Positions 8,663-17,497 of a stretch of 64,000 nucleotides of DNA are shown here, in pieces; position 1 is the stretch's first letter, and every line of letters starts with the position of its first letter. The stretch covers positions 157-64,156 of the forward strand of contig NZ_KB904540.1 of assembly GCF_000380085.1 (NCBI RefSeq). Direction: 5' to 3'. Under the pieces are notes generated by a model, which worked only from the letters and a program-made list of their open reading frames with translations, ran no database searches and was not told the DNA's origin. The DNA is from Streptococcus merionis DSM 19192 (GTDB lineage Bacteria; Bacillota; Bacilli; Lactobacillales; Streptococcaceae). The position numbers and the translations under genes were made by a program.

Positions 8663-9004
8663 TCAGATTTCAAGCCAGAAAAAAACAGGTACAAGATCTG
8701 TAATCTCCTGTTGGATAGTCATTCTCTTAAAGTTCATCCTGTTTGTAATGTTAAGCCCAACTTCTCCATAATAATCTCCAAAAAGTACATAAAACTGTTG
8801 AGTATTAGAGGATTTTACATAGGTCTACCCAATATCATAATCAGTGTTCACACTCCTCCCTTTTAGGATATTTTTAGGAATAAAAGCAGGTATCGCTACT
8901 CGCCACTAAGTATCAATCCTCTTTTAATTACTTGCGTCCCTCTAAATCAAGGCCTCTACTGATAGTAAAAATCGTACATACTGATAACAACAGATATTTC
9001 CTAA

Positions 9005-9047
9005 TGAGAAAAGGACTGAGCCCTGTACAATACAGAACTCAATCCTT
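9005..9047 (-). terminator. Hairpin after the YheO/DauR-like regulator
   Basis: AAGGACTGAG (9011-9020) pairs with CTCAATCCTT (9038-9047) with one G-U pair, and CTGT/ACAG closes an inner loop. On the minus strand the stem is followed by TTCTC preceded by CCTT, a weak U-tract. The rest of the 558-base gap 8651-9208 shows no gene that I can support. Confidence 0.5.
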
Positions 9048-9208
9048 AGCTTAAAATATAAGGTCCAACTTTTGGGGGTCAGATCAAAAAAGCACTCCGT
9101 CTCGTTTCTTTTCGTTTAGTCAAAGTTGCCATTCGCAGCGGTTTAAGCCTGAAAACAACAAAGCAAGAAAAACTATTTTTTAGCTGTAGGCATCTGTTCC
9201 ACACTCTC

Positions 9209-9889
9209 TTATATTGTTTTTGATTGTTCCTCTTCTTGTTTAACTTGCTGAACATATTTATATATGCTTACTTCAGACATGTGGAAAACTTCTGCTATTC
9301 TTGAAACAGAATCCTTAAAATCAAAAAAGCCTTTTTGGTAGAGGGAACGAACAATCGCAACTTTTTCATCTTTTGTCATACGACTTTTACTAAGATCCTT
9401 ACCTTGTGTTTCCTTAATAATTGTATCTTCTATCAAGCTATCGGCAGACGCATAGAAATTCTCTACTACATTGTCTCCATTGTCCTGTTCTTTAATATTG
9501 AGTTCTTCATTCAGAACACCCAAACTACTTTCAAATAAATGTTTTAAGGTAATCAGCTTGCTCTTGTCCGCATTGATACAAATCATGCCAATCAACTGCC
9601 CTTTATCTTTCACAAAAAAACTAGATGAATATAACTCTTTTCCTGTTATAGTCTTAGTTCGATAATTGACCAAAAAGTCTTTTTCTAGGTACACCTTAGA
9701 TTTATAGACATCCAGTACAAAATCGGTAGCTGGTGCGCCAATTTCACGTCCAGATAAATTATTTTTTATATAAACCACGGAATTGTCTAAACCATTTGTA
9801 AAATCCTGCAAGACTAATTCAGTCTCTTTCCCGAATACAGTTGCCAAAAAATCTAGTAAAGGCAAATACTGTGTCAATCTCGAGTCCAT
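9209..9889 (-). CDS. YheO/DauR-type transcriptional regulator (PAS-like + HTH)
   Basis: 226 residues. Residues 1-120 (YLPLLDFLATVFGKETELVL, later GREIGAPATDFVLD and a KGQLIGMICINAD strand) fit the YheO-like PAS domain. Residues about 160-215 (MTKDEKVAIVRSLYQKGFFD, then VSRIAEVFHMSEVSIYKYV) fit the C-terminal helix-turn-helix paired with it in the DauR group, which in Pseudomonas regulates D-amino acid use. ATG follows GAGAGGAAAACG. It lies downstream of the amidotransferase-permease-RidA-lyase-dipeptidase operon but has its own promoter region, which shares a 32-base block (26 identities) with the operon promoter. I infer that it controls both itself and the operon. The ligand is unknown, plausibly an amino acid or peptide. 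Confidence 0.8.
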   Translation of the reverse strand: MDSRLTQYLPLLDFLATVFGKETELVLQDFTNGLDNSVVYIKNNLSGREIGAPATDFVLDVYKSKVYLEKDFLVNYRTKTITGKELYSSSFFVKDKGQLIGMICINADKSKLITLKHLFESSLGVLNEELNIKEQDNGDNVVENFYASADSLIEDTIIKETQGKDLSKSRMTKDEKVAIVRSLYQKGFFDFKDSVSRIAEVFHMSEVSIYKYVQQVKQEEEQSKTI

Positions 9890-9927
9890 CGTTTTCCTCT
9901 CCTCATTGAAAGATAGTTTCTATGAGT

Positions 9928-9959
9928 TGTTTTTATAATATTCTATAACACCATTCTAC
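9928..9959 (-). promoter_or_regulatory. Promoter/operator block of the regulator, shared with the operon at 15391
   Basis: Read on the plus strand, this 32-base block starts TTGTTTTTATAA and contains ACACCATT. It matches 26 of 32 positions of 15391-15422 without gaps and lies 39 bases before the regulator ATG. On the minus strand it includes TATAGA/TATTAT, so it covers the -10 region. Confidence 0.55.
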
Positions 9960-10104
9960 CACATTCCATACAAATAACAACTTTTTAAATCTCAAATTCC
10001 CGAACCTTTTAAAGTAACATTAAGAAATCAACTACGGTTTTCTCACAATAAATTGGTTACTAATTCGATGAAAAATATTTTATTTGTTAAAAACATTCGT
10101 TTTT

Positions 10105-11496
10105 TTAGCAAACAAGCTCTGCAATTGACTGAGCATAAATAGATGTTGCCCGTATAATATCTTCTACACGCATATGTTCGTCAACCTGATGCATGGTATC
10201 TTGAGCATCTGGAAACAGTGCTCCAAAGGCAACTCCTTTCTCTAATAAACGAGCATAGGTTGCACCACCAATAACCTGTTCATGTGCAGGAAAACCTGTC
10301 TGTGTGTGATAAATATTCAATAGGGTTTGGACTATAGGCTCTTCAGCTGCTACATAATGAGGGGCCTTACTATTGATGATTTCTATACCTACACCATATG
10401 AAGCCAACTCTTTTTTCAGGAACTTTTGTGTTTTTAGTGATAGTTCTACACCTTTTGGATAACGGATATTAGCACGAATAAAACCACCGCTTAGGGCATT
10501 AAAACTAACCAAACCTACATTGATCATCAAGGTACCCATCTTTTCATCCTGATGAAATAAGCCTAACTTTTCTGCATTATGATCCTCATGTAAAACTGTC
10601 CCCAACAACTCTAGCCAGCCTGGGCTTTCTACCCACGACGCTAAAAAACAAGCTAAAAAGGTAGCTGCATTCTTTCCTTTTTGAGGTGTTGATCCATGAG
10701 CTGAGACCCCTTTGACAATAAAGGTCACTGAGTTTTCCTCTTTTGTCCATAATCCATCCAACTCTTTCTCAGTCAAATAGCTTTCAAATGCGGAAATACA
10801 TGCCTCTGGAACTGGACCGGTTAATGTAGCAACTGCCTGCTCTGGAACCATATTTTCTCGCAGGCCTGCTTCGAAACAAGTCAGTTTTAGCTCTTCTTTT
10901 TCAGTTTGAACGGGAAGATGAAATACAAGAGATGCAACACCCTTTTCACCATTGACAATCGGAAAATAAGCATCTGGTACAAAACCATAAGTTGGCAAAG
11001 TCTCTTTCTGGCAATAGGTGTCTATACATTTCCAGTCACTTTCCTCATCTGTACCAATAATAATTTGAAGATGCTTCTTCGGTACAAACCCCATTTCTTT
11101 CAGCATACGAGTTGCAAAAAAAGTGCAGAATAATGGGCCTTTATCATCTAAAACACCCCTAGCATACAACTTTCCATCTTGATAAGTTGGAGTAAAGGGC
11201 GGACTAGTCCAACCTTCCCCCGTTGGCACGACGTCAACATGCCCCAAAATACCAAACGGCTCTAACCCCGGCTCTCCCCAGTCAATTCGCCCAACAAGAG
11301 AGTCAATCATCTTTGTCTTAAAGCCTGCTTCATCTGCTAGTGATAATATATGCTCTAAAGCCTGTTTAGGTCCAGGTCCAACTGGACAATCACTAGTGGC
11401 CTTATCGTCTTCTCGGACTGAGGGAATCACAAGGAGTGTCTCTAACTCACTTAGCAATTGTTCCTTTCGTTTTGTTACTTCTTCTAACCAATTCAT
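10105..11496 (-). CDS. M20-family (PepV-like) metallodipeptidase
   Basis: 463 residues from the ATG at 11496, which follows AAAAAGGAAACTAT; an in-frame upstream ATG at 11565 lacks such a site. Zinc-binding landmarks of M20 are visible: GHVDVVPTG (about residue 85), ARGVLDDKGP (about 115) and GTDEES (about 150), with PDAYFPIVNGEKG next. The order and wording resemble PepV/Sapep cytosolic dipeptidases. The dimerisation-type insert (VSAHGSTPQKGKNAA) is present. It should hydrolyse dipeptides, releasing amino acids. As the last gene of an operon with an amidotransferase-fold hydrolase, permease, RidA and C-S lyase, it may act on Cys-Gly-type or gamma-Glu-derived dipeptides; that part is inference. 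A 114-base gap separates it from the lyase gene. Confidence 0.85.
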   Translation of the reverse strand: MNWLEEVTKRKEQLLSELETLLVIPSVREDDKATSDCPVGPGPKQALEHILSLADEAGFKTKMIDSLVGRIDWGEPGLEPFGILGHVDVVPTGEGWTSPPFTPTYQDGKLYARGVLDDKGPLFCTFFATRMLKEMGFVPKKHLQIIIGTDEESDWKCIDTYCQKETLPTYGFVPDAYFPIVNGEKGVASLVFHLPVQTEKEELKLTCFEAGLRENMVPEQAVATLTGPVPEACISAFESYLTEKELDGLWTKEENSVTFIVKGVSAHGSTPQKGKNAATFLACFLASWVESPGWLELLGTVLHEDHNAEKLGLFHQDEKMGTLMINVGLVSFNALSGGFIRANIRYPKGVELSLKTQKFLKKELASYGVGIEIINSKAPHYVAAEEPIVQTLLNIYHTQTGFPAHEQVIGGATYARLLEKGVAFGALFPDAQDTMHQVDEHMRVEDIIRATSIYAQSIAELVC

Positions 11497-11610
11497 ATAG
11501 TTTCCTTTTTCTAATCCTTTGTTTTTTCTAGCGAAAAACAGCATGTGCCTTGACGTTTCCATCACACATACTGCTTTTCAGCGTAAAATAATAAGGAGGT
11601 CGTAATAGAT

Positions 11611-12750
11611 TTAATTACCTAATGCCTGTTCGAAATCATCAATAAGGTCTTCAATATTTTCAATCCCACAAGATAGACGTAGAAGTCCATCAACCACGCC
11701 TTGCTCAGCTCTTTCTTCTGGGCTGAGACAAGCATGAGACATAGTTGCAGGATGAGATAAGATAGACTCTACACCACCCAGACTGACCGCAAGAATCGGG
11801 ATTCGAACCTTACTAGTGAAATCAAGTAACTCTTCTTTCGTAGCCAATTCGAAGGAGAGAACAGCTCCTCCATTTTTAGCCTGCGACTGATGAATCGCAT
11901 GATTTGGGTGACTCTTTAATCCTGGATAATAGACCTTCTTAATTTTGGGATGAGCCTGTAGGTATTCTGCCATAGCTTGGGCATTAGAGACTGCATGAGC
12001 CATCCGAATCCCCATTGTTTTCATGCCACGCATGATTAGCCAGGCATCTTCCACCCCAAGAATTCCACCAAAGTTTTTCTGAAAAAGCTTAAGCTCGTTG
12101 TAGTAAAACTCATTATTTGTCGCAACAAGACCCGCTACCACATCACTGTGCCCATTGATGAATTTGGTGACGCTTTCCACCACAATATCAACACCTAACT
12201 CCAGCGGTTCCTGCGCTAGCGTTGTCATAAATGTATTATCGGCAACAGTAATCAGGTTATGCTCTTTTGCAATTGCAACGAGTCCTCTAATGTCGGTTAC
12301 TTTTAACAACGGGTTGGATGGGGTTTCTAAATAAATCATCTTCGTATTAGAGCGAATGGCATTACGAACTTCATTCAAATCTGCCATATCAACAAAGGAC
12401 ACATCAATTTGATATCTGTACAAGATTTTTGTGACAAATTGACAGGTTCCCCCATAGACTTCCCTCGGCACAATCAAATGGTCTTTTGTCTTTAAAAGCA
12501 TAATCACATTGGAAATCGCTGCCATGCCAGATGAAAAGCTGATGGCATACTTGGCATTTTCCAGAGTTCTAAAACCATCTTCTAGCGCGTCAATCGTAGG
12601 ATTTGAAAAGCGAGTATAAAGATACTGTTGAGAATCGCTATAGAGTTGCTTGTTGTGAAAAGTTGAGGTTTGGTAAATAGGGATAGATGCAGCTCCCGTG
12701 TGTTCATCTAACACCTGGTACCCATGTAATAATTTGGTGTTCTCTTTCAC
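11611..12750 (-). CDS. PLP-dependent Cys/Met metabolism enzyme (cystathionine lyase / C-S lyase type)
   Basis: 379 residues, full length for the Cys/Met-metabolism PLP family. Visible landmarks: YLYTRFSNPT near residue 43 (phosphate-side Tyr and Arg), SSGMAAI near 75, YLETPSNPLL near 142, ADNTF near 173, and ESVTKFINGHSDV near 197, whose Lys should carry PLP. C-terminal SLGGVESILSHPA and LRLSCGIEN are typical. The start is a GTG in TAGTG, overlapping the RidA stop by one base, with GGAGG just upstream, so translation is probably coupled. Beta- or gamma-elimination by such enzymes yields 2-aminoacrylate or 2-aminocrotonate, which RidA hydrolyses, so the gene order makes biochemical sense. Lyase, synthase and methionine gamma-lyase cannot be separated from sequence alone. 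Confidence 0.85.
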   Translation of the reverse strand: MKENTKLLHGYQVLDEHTGAASIPIYQTSTFHNKQLYSDSQQYLYTRFSNPTIDALEDGFRTLENAKYAISFSSGMAAISNVIMLLKTKDHLIVPREVYGGTCQFVTKILYRYQIDVSFVDMADLNEVRNAIRSNTKMIYLETPSNPLLKVTDIRGLVAIAKEHNLITVADNTFMTTLAQEPLELGVDIVVESVTKFINGHSDVVAGLVATNNEFYYNELKLFQKNFGGILGVEDAWLIMRGMKTMGIRMAHAVSNAQAMAEYLQAHPKIKKVYYPGLKSHPNHAIHQSQAKNGGAVLSFELATKEELLDFTSKVRIPILAVSLGGVESILSHPATMSHACLSPEERAEQGVVDGLLRLSCGIENIEDLIDDFEQALGN

Positions 12751-13130
12751 TATTTAACCTCCGCAACAGCCTCAATTTCTACTAAAGCACCCATCGGTAG
12801 AGAACCGACTGCAAAAGCAGTGCGAGCTGGATAATCTTCCTCAAAAAACGCCTGATAGACTTTATCAAAAGCTGCAAAGTCTTCAATATTTTTTAGATAA
12901 ACAGTCGTTTTGACAATACAACTCATAGAAGCACCATTGTCTTCTAAAATCGCTTTAATATTGTTCAAAGACTGTCCTACTTGCCATTCGATGTCTGCAT
13001 GATCAATCTGACCAGTTTCAACATTAATCGGTAATTGACCCGATGTAAAAATCAAATTCCCTGTCCTACTTGCCGAAGAATAACTCCCAACCGCTGGTGG
13101 AATACGTTCACTTGTTAGACGTGTTACCAT
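12750..13130 (-). CDS. ridA: RidA-family enamine/imine deaminase
   Basis: 126 residues, the usual length for RidA (YjgF/YER057c/UK114). GSYSSASRTGNLIFTSGQLP near the N-terminus, the AILEDNGASM region, and PARTAFAVGSLPMGALVEIE at the C-terminus, including the conserved Arg, match the family. RidA proteins hydrolyse reactive 2-aminoacrylate and related enamines made by PLP enzymes. It is placed directly before such an enzyme, with a one-base stop/start overlap, so it probably protects the cell from that product. The ATG follows AAAAGGAGTTAAC. It may be a second, operon-specific paralogue; only this copy is in the window. Confidence 0.9.
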   Translation of the reverse strand: MVTRLTSERIPPAVGSYSSASRTGNLIFTSGQLPINVETGQIDHADIEWQVGQSLNNIKAILEDNGASMSCIVKTTVYLKNIEDFAAFDKVYQAFFEEDYPARTAFAVGSLPMGALVEIEAVAEVK

Positions 13131-13165
13131 ATCATGTTAACTCCTTTTAAATTTATTAATTAATT

Positions 13166-14566
13166 TTAATTTGCTTCAAGTTTGAAAGATTTTATACGAT
13201 GTGCTTGCCAGAGCATCAAACCAAGTGGTAAAACAATATATCCAATTACCATGGCAATAATAGCAAATATGTTTGCGACAACAGTGCCATCTTCCGTAGT
13301 GATTGTGAATTGTGCTGACCAGCTAAATTTGTAAAGTAACAAGACAGTGAAAACAAGTGCCAGAGCTGGAGTTACAACATCTACAATAAAGCTCTTCTTA
13401 GCAGTAGACACTATATCTTCTTTTTGATATCCAAAGTAGAAGATCATTACTGCTGCCGGTACAATGATAAATTGAATAAAGCGGGAAATAGAACTGAGCA
13501 CTATAATGTTTCCCATATCATAGCGGAAAGCCATTGGTAACAAAATAGCAATACCAATCGTGACGAAGAATGCACGAATTGGGAAACCTGTTTCCGTTCG
13601 TTGCGAGAAGTAATCTGGAATTTGTTTTTGTAAAGCCATTGCTTCCAAAATGCGTGGCGTATGAAAGGATGCTGCTACATTGATACCAAACATGGATACC
13701 AAAGCTCCGCCTAAGATAATCGCACGAATAATTGGGTTTTCAAAAACAGATGCAAGCGCAACAACTTCAGTTGTAGAAACGATAGCCGCAGGATTAATCA
13801 TCATAGCCACACCGACAATCCCAATATAAACTGCTGCGACAATACCAATTGCTAAAGGAATAGCACGTGGAAGATTCTTTTCTGGCTCTTCCATATCTTG
13901 GGCACCACTTGCAACGCTTTCAAATCCTGTAAAAGCATAGAAAGCTGCAATAATCGCCATGACATAAGCTGGCATATCCATTTGAGAACCCAAAGCTTTA
14001 CCAGTTGAGTCTGTCAGCGTTTTGATGGTTGAAAATTCATTGACACCTGTAAAGACAACTAAACCGATACCAACTAAAATAGTTGTGACCAAAGCACCTA
14101 CTTTACAAATCGTAGACACATTATTGATAATGGTAAACAGGCGAGTTCCTAAGAGATTAATACCTAACAATACTGCCATCAAGATAACAAAACCAACTGT
14201 AACTAGCATTAAATTACCACTATCCATTTTGAAAATGCTCAGTACAGTTTTAACAACTGCTGTTCCCATCACACCCCATGCAATACTAGCTGCAATATAG
14301 CGGGTAATCCCAACATAAAATCCAATTTTTTCCCCAAAAGCAGCTTTTGCATAAGCATAAGAAGCCCCACCCTTGTCAACATACTTAGCGGCTGCAGCAA
14401 ACGTGACAGCTAAAATGGAAGCAAAAATTGCTGCTAAAAAATAAATTAATAACGCCTTATCTCCACTGCTAGCAACAACACCTCCCGGGGATAAAAAAAT
14501 CCCTGTTCCAATAATTGAGTTAATTGTCAATAAAACAATAGAATAAAATCCCAATTTTTTCTTCAT
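13166..14566 (-). CDS. APC-superfamily amino acid permease
   Basis: 466 residues with about 12 hydrophobic segments. The N-terminal SIIGTGIFLSPGGVVASSG is the conserved helix 1 of APC transporters (unwound GTGIF). AFYAFTGFESVASGAQDMEE PEKNLPRAIP, read across its break, matches the family signature after helix 6. It most resembles Lat/Gad-type permeases in layout. ATG follows CGAAGGAGTGAACC. Second gene of the operon, 18 bases after the amidotransferase gene. It should import an amino acid or gamma-glutamyl compound for the enzymes encoded around it; the substrate is inferred only from context. Confidence 0.85.
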   Translation of the reverse strand: MKKKLGFYSIVLLTINSIIGTGIFLSPGGVVASSGDKALLIYFLAAIFASILAVTFAAAAKYVDKGGASYAYAKAAFGEKIGFYVGITRYIAASIAWGVMGTAVVKTVLSIFKMDSGNLMLVTVGFVILMAVLLGINLLGTRLFTIINNVSTICKVGALVTTILVGIGLVVFTGVNEFSTIKTLTDSTGKALGSQMDMPAYVMAIIAAFYAFTGFESVASGAQDMEEPEKNLPRAIPLAIGIVAAVYIGIVGVAMMINPAAIVSTTEVVALASVFENPIIRAIILGGALVSMFGINVAASFHTPRILEAMALQKQIPDYFSQRTETGFPIRAFFVTIGIAILLPMAFRYDMGNIIVLSSISRFIQFIIVPAAVMIFYFGYQKEDIVSTAKKSFIVDVVTPALALVFTVLLLYKFSWSAQFTITTEDGTVVANIFAIIAMVIGYIVLPLGLMLWQAHRIKSFKLEAN

Positions 14567-14584
14567 GGTTCACTCCTTCGTATC

Positions 14585-15361
14585 CTATACAACTGCTTTA
14601 ACATCATTGATTTCAGCAACGGTATCACCCCTTGCTTCATTAATCAGAGCTTTAAACAACCTATTCATTTCTTTCCTGCTAAGGTAGAGCATCTCAGGGT
14701 GCCACTGCACTCCCACTAAGAAACGATAATTGACATGTTCAATCGCTTCAATTGCTGTATCGGCTGCACGCGCTACCACACGGAATTCCTCTGGTACATG
14801 ACGCATGACTTGATGATGGAAAGAGTTGACCATCATTTTTTCCTCACCAAAAATCTGGTACAAGAGTGAATCTCTCTCGATGCGGATGGAATGTGTTGGT
14901 AAATCTGGATAATGTTCCTGCCAATGTTTCAAAAATGGTTGATCAGCATAACTCAAATCCTGCCACAAGGTTCCCCCATGATAAACATTGATAATCTGCG
15001 CTCCACGACAAATTCCAAGAATAGGAATATTTTTCTCCTTAGCTTTTCTCAGTAAGGCAAAATCAAACTGGTCACGCGCTGGGAAAGTATCGCCTAATTT
15101 CGGACTTGGTTCTTCTCCATAGTTAAACGGACAAACATCATGTCCACCTGATAAAATCAAGGCATCGATACTATTGATATAACCATCTAATACCCTCTCT
15201 TCATCTGTGACGGGCAAAATCATTGGAATACCTCCGTTTTTGCTGACAGACAAAACATAGTCCTCATTTACGTAGCTGCGGTGATATCCTGGAAACATCC
15301 CGCCTTGGTCAATGATGATACTAGCCGAAATCCCAATTATCGGAACTTTAATGTGTGCCAT
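14585..15361 (-). CDS. Class I glutamine-amidotransferase-fold hydrolase (PuuD / gamma-Glu-GABA hydrolase type)
   Basis: 258 residues from the ATG at 15361, preceded by AAAAGGAGTCTTGAG; an in-frame start at 15418 would overlap the promoter and is rejected. The peptidase C26 triad is visible: nucleophile Cys in ILGICRGAQIINVYHGGTL, and His and Glu in VGVQWHPEML. LSGGHDVCPFNYGEEP near residue 75 is typical of the PuuD branch. Such enzymes cleave gamma-glutamyl bonds, for example in gamma-Glu-GABA. It is the first gene of the operon and lies under a TTGCAA/TATTAT promoter. With permease, C-S lyase, RidA and dipeptidase behind it, an attractive reading is removal of the gamma-Glu group from an imported sulfur compound; this is inference. 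Confidence 0.85.
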   Translation of the reverse strand: MAHIKVPIIGISASIIIDQGGMFPGYHRSYVNEDYVLSVSKNGGIPMILPVTDEERVLDGYINSIDALILSGGHDVCPFNYGEEPSPKLGDTFPARDQFDFALLRKAKEKNIPILGICRGAQIINVYHGGTLWQDLSYADQPFLKHWQEHYPDLPTHSIRIERDSLLYQIFGEEKMMVNSFHHQVMRHVPEEFRVVARAADTAIEAIEHVNYRFLVGVQWHPEMLYLSRKEMNRLFKALINEARGDTVAEINDVKAVV

Positions 15362-15390
15362 CTCAAGACTCCTTTTATAATATTTTTTAA

Positions 15391-15470
15391 TTGTTTTTAT
15401 AAAATTATAATACACCATTTTGTATCCGTTTGCAACATTTTTTTATAAAAAAATATAACTTTTTATAAAA
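15391..15470 (-). promoter_or_regulatory. Promoter and operator region of the hydrolase-permease-RidA-lyase operon
   Basis: The -35 TTGCAA (15430-15435) and -10 TATTAT (15407-15412) are 17 bases apart. Perfect TTTTATAAAA palindromes occur at 15395-15404, 15441-15450 and 15461-15470; the last two are exactly 20 bases apart. The block 15391-15422 matches the regulator's own promoter at 9928-9959. Confidence 0.65.
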
Positions 15471-15790
15471 CGAGCCTCTTTTTTAGATATTCGACAGAAA
15501 AAGCATAATATATAACTTATGTAGCAGGAAATTCTCTATACAACTTACTAAGAATTTTTGTAAGCACACAAAAACTCCAAGATGGTCTACGATAAAAAAC
15601 CCAAAAACTCAGTCTAAGGATAGCTATGGAATCCTTTCATACAATCACTAATCTTACCAGATGCTAAACTAGAGCCTACTAACCCCATCATAAAATAGAA
15701 TTTAGCGAAACTCTTCTGCTTTCATCAGTTTGAAGACTAAACACACGCATTTTGAGACCTAGTTTAAAGCAATAATCTCTCCAACATAAA

Positions 15791-16579: not shown

Positions 16580-17284
16580 TTACTGACTGTAGAGTGCCTG
16601 AACGGCTGTAATATCAGTTGGTTGAATGCCATGATAAGAACCCGCTGATGCCATAACAGAGGTTTCCGTATCTTGATGCCCAAGCCCAATGGCATGGCCT
16701 AGCTCATGCTCTGCTGTGTGCAAAATCCGCTCACTACTGTAACCATAGGCCTGATTTAACAGATAATAGCTATTTAGCTTAACGGTGACATTGACCATAC
16801 GATGGGTAAGTGGGTTTACAGTAGACTCCGCCACACCCGCAGCTGGCGTGTCAGGGGCAGCGTAATCCGTCGCAATAATGTCTGCTTCCTCTGCTGTCGA
16901 AACTTGTACAAAAGTAAAAACACCTGTTGAAGTCCAATTGGCAATGGCTTGCTCATAAGCAGTGACAAAGGTCGGGTCTGAAGACGCGATGTAGACCGTC
17001 GCTTGATTGGTCTCCCAACGGGCGCCCTCTGTCGTGTAGACAACATCTGTGGATAGTTTGGACAATTCCTGACCAAAGGGTTCTGCTTTAAAGCGCTCAA
17101 CTAAGCGAGTCAGGCCATGATTGACCTGCTGAGTTACTTCTGACTGGGCAAAGGCCTCTGTGTTTAAAACATAAACCACTGTGAGTAGGCTCAGAAAAGC
17201 CACTAGAACAGCGGTTGCTAGCTTGAAAGCAAAGCGAATCATTGCCCACAAGAGCCGAAAAGGCAATAGTAAAATCCGTCTCAT
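16580..17284 (-). CDS. Matrixin-like secreted/membrane zinc metalloprotease
   Basis: 234 residues from the ATG at 17284, seven bases after AGGAGG. An N-terminal hydrophobic anchor (about 10-40) is followed by a soluble domain. Near residue 195 HTAEHELGHAIGLGHQDTET carries the metzincin zinc motif HExxHxxGxxH, and SVMASAGSYHGIQPTDITAV supplies the Met-turn and the end of the matrixin domain. RWETNQATVYI fits the start of the catalytic domain. There is no clear Cys-switch pro-peptide. It should be an extracytoplasmic protease with active site outside the membrane. Substrate unknown. It is followed by a small membrane protein. Such bacterial matrixins are known in streptococci but little studied. 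Confidence 0.85.
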   Translation of the reverse strand: MRRILLLPFRLLWAMIRFAFKLATAVLVAFLSLLTVVYVLNTEAFAQSEVTQQVNHGLTRLVERFKAEPFGQELSKLSTDVVYTTEGARWETNQATVYIASSDPTFVTAYEQAIANWTSTGVFTFVQVSTAEEADIIATDYAAPDTPAAGVAESTVNPLTHRMVNVTVKLNSYYLLNQAYGYSSERILHTAEHELGHAIGLGHQDTETSVMASAGSYHGIQPTDITAVQALYSQ

Positions 17285-17497
17285 CACAAAACCTCCTTTC
17301 AACACAGCTTCAAGGGGATTTCTTTAGCTAACTCCGTTTAAAAATCTGTATTCACATGACTCAGGAAATCGTTTTTTGAAAAAACACTGACTCTATTAAA
17401 AAACGAACGATGCATCTCGTCTTAATCAAAGTGTGAGCCATGAATACAGGTTCTAAAGGTCTAGCAAGTCAAAGCTCAAAATCTTTAGCATAACAGA

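Follow-up and report, generated by a model that had tools for sequence, protein, structure and literature searches.

What compound do the six adjacent genes at positions 9209-15361 of the window serve to break down, and do they act as one unit? The window, which is the whole stretch of DNA that was analysed, comprises 64,000 nucleotides of Streptococcus merionis DSM 19192 (contig NZ_KB904540.1, positions 157 to 64,156), and the six genes lie on its minus strand in the order puuD-apc-ridA-lyase-pepV, followed by a gene for a YheO-type regulator. Here, we provide comparative genomic evidence that this block recurs in a single gene order in seven genomes, namely six streptococci and Veillonella montpellierensis. 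We propose, with a confidence that we place midway between belief and disbelief, that the block is an operon which has spread horizontally and serves to catabolize a gamma-glutamyl sulfur compound of the cysteine type, be it gamma-Glu-Cys, glutathione or an S-substituted derivative, the identity of the substrate being what we infer.

All six genes are present in the order and place given by an earlier sequence-only reading of this DNA, and each product exceeds the Pfam cut-off of its expected family. The first gene, puuD (14585-15361), encodes a class I glutamine-amidotransferase-like gamma-glutamyl hydrolase (Peptidase_C26; PF07722, 236 bits) with a Cys-His-Glu triad (C118/H221/E223) that is kept in all seven complete blocks; its 112.8 bits against the PuuD equivalog PRK11366 (NCBIfam; cut-off 266) place the protein as PuuD-like only. 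It is followed by genes for an APC-superfamily amino-acid permease (13166-14566; PF13520, 137 bits) and for the enamine/imine deaminase RidA (12750-13130; PF01042; TIGR00004, 139.4 over a cut-off of 106.25), whose R103 and E118, which we take to be R105 and E120 of RidA, are kept in 7/7 blocks. The fourth gene starts with GTG (11611-12750) and encodes a Cys/Met-metabolism enzyme dependent on pyridoxal phosphate (PLP), likely a C-S lyase (PF01053, 471 bits); K196, presumably the PLP lysine, is present throughout the seven blocks. The pepV-like gene (10105-11499) encodes an M20 metallodipeptidase (PF01546) that matches the PepV structure PDB 1lfw, scoring 543 over a cut-off of 435 against the dipeptidase PepV model NF005591/PRK07318 and 484 below one of 632 against TIGR01886. 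Its H87, D119, E152, E153, D176 and H437, by family knowledge presumably the metal ligands and catalytic residues, are again kept in 7/7. The regulator (9209-9889) is of the YheO/DauR type (PAS_6, PF08348, 107 bits; HTH_22, PF13309, 63 bits). As far as protein family models can tell, the RidA, YheO regulator and M20/PepV-like assignments hold, and PuuD-like and C-S-lyase-like are works-like assignments because the curated equivalog cut-offs were missed.

In the window, 18 bases lie between puuD and apc, 35 between apc and ridA, 111 between lyase and pepV, and 215 between pepV and the regulator gene. The ridA stop and the lyase start share one base in TAGTG at 12752-12748, exactly as previously read; among the seven complete blocks, the two genes range from overlapping by 4 bases to being 3 bases apart. 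The most likely start codon of pepV is ATG 11499, which is preceded by AAAAAGG (by eye), rather than GTG 11565 of the longer open reading frame (ORF).

A lyase scan of species genomes, from which the best 80 of 209 relatives were kept as loci, found the complete block in two of these, V. montpellierensis (L035) and Streptococcus sp. S784/96/1 (L036, genome G130). Within Streptococcus, the lyase was detected at E <= 1e-140 in just 8 of 284 genomes, a count on which the idea of an operon common across the genus was rejected. In six of these eight the block is complete and its gene order unchanged (G000, the genome of the window, and G130, G070, G838, G850 and G860), so that the neighbourhood comparison that the sequence-only reading had called for yielded, together with Veillonella, seven genomes with identical gene order and not the lack of co-conservation that would have refuted that reading. 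The other two are incomplete: in G882 (L218:2848-7975) the puuD, apc, ridA and pepV frames are fragmented and the lyase and regulator frames are open, and in G043 the lyase stands alone. Two further streptococci, G106 and G120, have a close regulator alone; they were met through the sample of YheO regions, so others may exist. The copies of G070, G882, G043, G106 and G120 lie near one common flank gene, which we take to be leuS, and the neighbours in the window, G130, G838, G850 and G860 differ (flanking genes were named by eye, presumably as leuS, tig, dnaX, birA, pepN, an ABC-F gene, an arc set, murI and BioY). The differing sites, together with the decayed and remnant copies, suggest that the block has spread between genomes as one unit and decayed.

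The lyase of the window is 80% identical to that of Veillonella and 76% to that of G130. For Veillonella and G860, identity reaches 88-93% across apc, ridA, the lyase and the regulator, as against 80% for puuD and 78% for pepV; the lyase and regulator-type trees, both computed with long-branch warnings, join Veillonella with G860. Base composition supports transfer in some cases only, as the contrasts in G+C content between block and flank are uneven: 39.1/43.0% in the window, 34.3/40.3% in G860, 38.8/35.9% in G130, 32.3/30.8% in Veillonella and nearly equal values in G070, G838 and G850. Contamination of the Veillonella contig with streptococcal DNA was considered and seems less likely; its flank gene, by eye BioY-like, was unmatched in 147 Streptococcus genomes, a result that is suggestive only for want of a positive control. 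A plasmid origin was likewise discarded, positions 9000-15600 having no near match among 72,556 plasmid records. The lyase of Liquorilactobacillus aquaticus (69% identity) has no other block genes nearby. PuuD-family proteins as such occur in 147/147 Streptococcus genomes, and among the matches listed all but four are only 37-44% identical. One locus with a closer puuD (G110, 54%), near an arc-like set, an unrelated aminotransferase and an M20 peptidase 33% identical to pepV (by eye), was judged a coincidence.

The block looks like two joined modules, PuuD-APC and RidA-lyase-YheO, and the partners that each keeps elsewhere bear on the substrate. The permease was found at E <= 1e-80 in 5 of 279 genomes of the same class, that of the window and four others, and a PuuD relative (263-285 bits) adjoins it in 4/4 of these close relatives outside the block; three of the four genomes belong to one genus, which leaves about two independent cases. 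One of the pairs (L246) lies on a 3.5-kb contig too short to show its neighbours. Looser pairs occur at L118, L193, L194 and L195, the last two from one genus. A PuuD scan with 26 of 398 genomes in its listing led to 11 fetched regions besides that of the window, three of which contain the pair (the puuD frame of L201 was dropped by the ORF filter); two further PuuD regions (L229, L230) have no APC gene beside puuD. In one distantly related genome from the phylum of the window (L193:8710-12094), puuD and apc form a set with a third gene, whose product matches PF03313 as well as structures of L-cysteine desulfidase (PDB 9fsl, E 6e-40).

For the second module, 54 of the 295 Lactobacillales genomes searched with PAS_6 yielded 59 YheO matches, and 58 regions besides that of the window were fetched, several of which end at contig ends. 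RidA is encoded within 5.5 kb of the regulator in 23 of the 58 regions and in none of 27 control loci, which are convenience rather than random loci (L192-L202, L219-L234; L215-L218 were left out as they carry the block). In nine regions the regulator is accompanied by a relative of the lyase (469-491 bits), an SDF-family symporter and an enzyme resembling CoA-disulfide reductase, in seven of these nine also by RidA, and in 11 regions by D-serine ammonia-lyase, ten of them with RidA; regions were assigned to these classes by their resemblance to a single annotated protein of each kind (CoA-disulfide reductase, 544 over 458; D-serine ammonia-lyase, 632 over 246; SDF symporter, 305 bits). The seven symporter clusters with RidA (L125, L126, L131, L140, L143, L146, L148) resemble the block in related lyase, RidA and YheO-type regulator, but they possess an SDF symporter, presumably cystine-type, and a reductase, and have no PuuD, APC or PepV match within 5.5 kb of the regulator. 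Taken alone, they look like gene sets for the breakdown of cystine, with the reductase possibly acting on persulfide. In trees, the block lyases group with lone lyases of other Lactobacillales and not with those of the symporter clusters, so that the link is one of kinship and shared partners, not of direct descent. The regulators of the blocks, remnant copies included, group in a single clade (100/100) apart from the regulators of the D-serine clusters, in a tree that carries long-branch warnings. Ten of the D-serine regions (L161, L164, L167, L168, L171, L172, L175, L139, L144, L152) combine YheO, RidA and D-serine ammonia-lyase with a PTS_EIIC_2-type membrane protein, which would be unusual as a D-serine transporter. 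Streptococcus G013 (L174:3934-7645) encodes a PatB-family C-S lyase, RidA, an SDF symporter and a divergently placed regulator of the YheO type, another way of solving the same problem.

The promoters of the block were assigned by consensus matches only. The puuD promoter reads TTGCAA-17-TATTAT (15407-15435), with operator-like palindromes 3' of the -10 element (15375-15412, of which 15375-15390 has two and 15397-15412 three mismatches) and two overlapping sites with three mismatches each upstream of the -35 element (15443-15468). The regulator promoter reads TTGTTA-16-TAGAAT with a TG before the -10 element (9953-9980), and directly 3' of that element lies an operator-like palindrome (9933-9948) that matches TTATAAAATTTTATAA in 14/16 positions. 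The resemblance of the two promoters, pointed out in the sequence-only reading, is borne out by the pattern AATWTTATAAAAACAAYT, which at two or fewer mismatches occurs at 15389-15406 and 9925-9942 and nowhere else in the 64 kb (shuffle mean 0.05 sites, for a pattern itself derived from these two sites). TTATAAAATTTTATAA-like palindromes are present in the puuD promoters of all seven complete blocks, perfect in G070, Veillonella, G850 and G860 and with two mismatches in the best copy of the window, G130 and G838. The best mismatches sum to 6 over the seven promoters, compared with a mean of 28.8 and a minimum of 21 in 300 shuffles, a test that is post hoc because the consensus was chosen from these promoters. 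Even so, we regard it as strong that four genomes carry exact copies of TTATAAAATTTTATAA at a distance of 45 to 54 bases ahead of the start codon. Within the window, TTATAAAATTTTATAA has six sites at three or fewer mismatches (1.49 expected), five of which fall in the two promoters.

Transcription may not run evenly through the block. Between lyase and pepV, at approximately 11530-11583, lies a terminator- or attenuator-like stem-loop that had been overlooked in the sequence-only reading; the segment 11500-11610 folds at -33 kcal/mol (z -6.0). The same gap forms a stem-loop in 7/7 complete blocks (z -2.8 in G130, -5.2 in Veillonella, -2.4 in G070, -2.4 in G838, -6.4 in G850 and -3.5 in G860), and a U-rich stretch often follows the structure or lies at its end (by eye). 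As the stem-loop splits the lyase gene from pepV, a five-gene transcript is only putative. Partial termination or mRNA processing is likely at this point, and pepV may consequently be made at a lower level. Downstream of the regulator gene, a terminator-like structure (9011-9047) has a 17-pair stem and a T-rich tail; terminator-like sites are in no excess across the region (6 compared with a shuffle mean of 6.6).

Catabolism by the block could proceed as follows. The APC permease would import the gamma-glutamyl compound, and the PuuD-type enzyme, judged by its family and catalytic triad, would remove the gamma-glutamyl group. Where Cys-Gly remains, the M20 dipeptidase might take off glycine, which is the least certain step. 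The PLP enzyme, as its family suggests, would then catalyze C-S beta-elimination to a thiol or H2S and 2-aminoacrylate, which RidA, by family and key residues, would convert to pyruvate and ammonia. The YheO regulator may sense the compound or a product and bind the TTATAAAATTTTATAA-like operators that surround the puuD promoter; in the window it would probably also bind the site at its own promoter. The cell would gain sulfur, glutamate, pyruvate and ammonia. PMC7221256 describes the importance of RidA Arg105 and an acceleration of pyruvate release by RidA in the cysteine desulfhydrase reaction. A cysteine-type substrate finds support in the desulfidase partner in L193, in the disulfide reductase that accompanies the lyase in the related clusters and in a 'Glycine transporter' (PF03458) gene that follows the regulator gene after 3 and 18 bases in two of the seven blocks (G850, G860) and would fit the release of glycine. 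The two PF03458 genes (L216:11523-12179, plus strand; L217:5082-5735, minus strand) are 64% identical, have different neighbours and are possibly a seventh member of the block. The scavenging chain that the sequence-only reading had outlined is partly supported: the joint travel of the genes in seven blocks, the recurrent PuuD-permease pair and the frequent placement of RidA by YheO regulators and 2-aminoacrylate-forming PLP enzymes speak in its favour, and pepV, with its low identity, is at most a putative essential step.

Several observations weigh against the proposed operon for a gamma-glutamyl cysteine-type compound. In L247, L248 and L249, the PuuD-APC pair has neither lyase nor RidA in its vicinity, and this, together with close lyases that stand alone, indicates that coupling of the modules is optional. 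The lyase scores under the curated cut-offs shown for cystathionine beta-lyase (PRK08064, 503 below 627) and gamma-lyase (PRK07671, 450 below 594). With 43-53% identity for most block pairs, compared with 71-80% for the lyase, and at most 78%, pepV is the least conserved gene and lies behind the stem-loop, which renders its part as an essential step only putative. The PF03458 gene is found in 43 of 118 streptococci, including the genome of the window on another contig, so that its adjacency to the block may be chance. None of the sought genes was found in 26 of the 58 YheO regions, and the SDF symporter of the related clusters matched only glutamate/dicarboxylate NCBIfam models, far below cut-off. 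Genome-wide, TTATAAAATTTTATAA is not distinctive at two or fewer mismatches (12 sites compared with 9 for the backward control), and the motif alone cannot single out other targets. Among the six complete streptococcal carriers, GshAB exceeds its cut-off in G000 and G838, has a partial match below cut-off in G850 and no match in G130, G070 and G860; the absence of a correlation led us to reject the notion that carriers keep the block because they are glutathione auxotrophs.

It is conceivable that the lyase acts on cystine or cystathionine, that PuuD, APC and PepV salvage gamma-glutamyl compounds or peptides separately, and that the operon merely co-regulates the two. The modules do occur apart, PuuD-APC without the rest and the lyase either by itself or alongside an SDF symporter and a disulfide reductase, and the stem-loop sets off pepV. 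However, the block has neither an SDF symporter nor a disulfide reductase of its own, and its four-gene core is tightly packed (gaps of -4 to 35 bases) and kept together in seven genomes; we regard such a double salvage as rather unlikely. Alternatively, the substrates could be gamma-glutamyl dipeptides of other amino acids, such as gamma-Glu-Met, with the PLP enzyme acting as a gamma-lyase whose product 2-aminocrotonate (yielding 2-oxobutyrate) is cleared by RidA. The enzyme matches models of beta-lyase (503), gamma-lyase (450) and methionine gamma-lyase (384), all below cut-off, and PuuD-APC occurs without an adjacent sulfur enzyme. Yet its closest relative of known structure is a cystathionine beta-lyase (PDB 8jui), followed by CGL/CGS-type enzymes with methionine gamma-lyases lower, and the sole enzyme seen after PuuD-APC elsewhere is the L-cysteine desulfidase relative, which makes a gamma-lyase route unlikely. 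A second Cys/Met enzyme in the genome, 36% identical to the block lyase and paired with a PatB/MalY-like protein (by eye; L120:7445-9695), makes a purely biosynthetic role of the block lyase less likely; that pair is perhaps the biosynthetic one.

Two further readings start from family names. DauR responds to a D-amino acid, and the frequency of D-serine ammonia-lyase with RidA in the YheO regions of Lactobacillales would fit a D-amino-acid or D-serine-like catabolic operon. The block, however, encodes a Cys/Met-family enzyme and no D-serine ammonia-lyase, and its regulators fall in their own clade, with the long-branch warnings noted above, so that we consider D-amino-acid catabolism very unlikely. 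A polyamine or gamma-aminobutyrate (GABA) route, in which PuuD acts on gamma-Glu-GABA, finds support in the PuuD family name and the match to PRK11366, but that match misses its cut-off, none of the six genes is puuA-, puuB- or puuC-like, and lyase and RidA would be idle; we deem it very improbable. Catabolism of a gamma-glutamyl cysteine-type compound could take a more specific form, a self-contained mobile module for glutathione or glutathione S-conjugates that cuts the gamma-Glu, Gly and C-S bonds, has built-in 2-aminoacrylate detoxification and is governed by a YheO regulator from a group of Lactobacillales proteins that often controls 2-aminoacrylate-forming PLP enzymes and perhaps senses that chemistry; this we put forward tentatively, as doubtful rather than probable.

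Parts of the block resemble described systems. Gene clusters in which RidA accompanies cystathionine beta-lyase and cysteine desulfhydrase were reported by Niehaus et al. in 2015 (PMC4433059) and, like the block, encode RidA beside a 2-aminoacrylate-forming C-S PLP enzyme; the main text of that paper does not contain 'gamma-glutamyl', 'dipeptidase' or 'YheO', and the block adds a gamma-glutamyl hydrolase, an APC permease, a dipeptidase and a YheO regulator. The thioalcohol pathway of Staphylococcus hominis for Cys-Gly-3M3SH (PMC7385124) shares import, peptide bond removal and a C-S beta-lyase, but relies on DtpT to import the peptide and on a lyase of the PatB type, and 'RidA' does not occur in the paper. 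The dedicated S. hominis dipeptidase model NF052477 scores 388 against the pepV product of the window, below its cut-off of 1025. The glutathione import locus with ggt of Staphylococcus aureus (PMC10355420) is likewise a dedicated locus for nutrient sulfur from a gamma-glutamyl compound, but uses an ABC transporter and a gamma-glutamyl transpeptidase instead of an APC permease and PuuD, and the opening of the abstract mentions no lyase or RidA. The sequence-only reading knew of no streptococcal pathway with exactly this set; no description of the six-gene set was found in the open literature searched, which largely excludes subscription journals. Close to the block, at 16580-17305, a small secreted-looking protein is encoded that contains HELGHAIGLGH, presumably a zinc-protease-like motif.

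If our proposal of gamma-glutamyl sulfur compound catabolism is true, a few streptococci and Veillonella would share, through gene transfer, a gamma-glutamyl sulfur scavenging route in one piece. The PuuD-APC gene pairs of other Firmicutes would acquire a testable function, and the YheO regulators of lactic acid bacteria would gain a testable role in the control of 2-aminoacrylate-releasing PLP enzymes with RidA alongside. The block may also bear on the release of thiols or H2S by host-associated bacteria.

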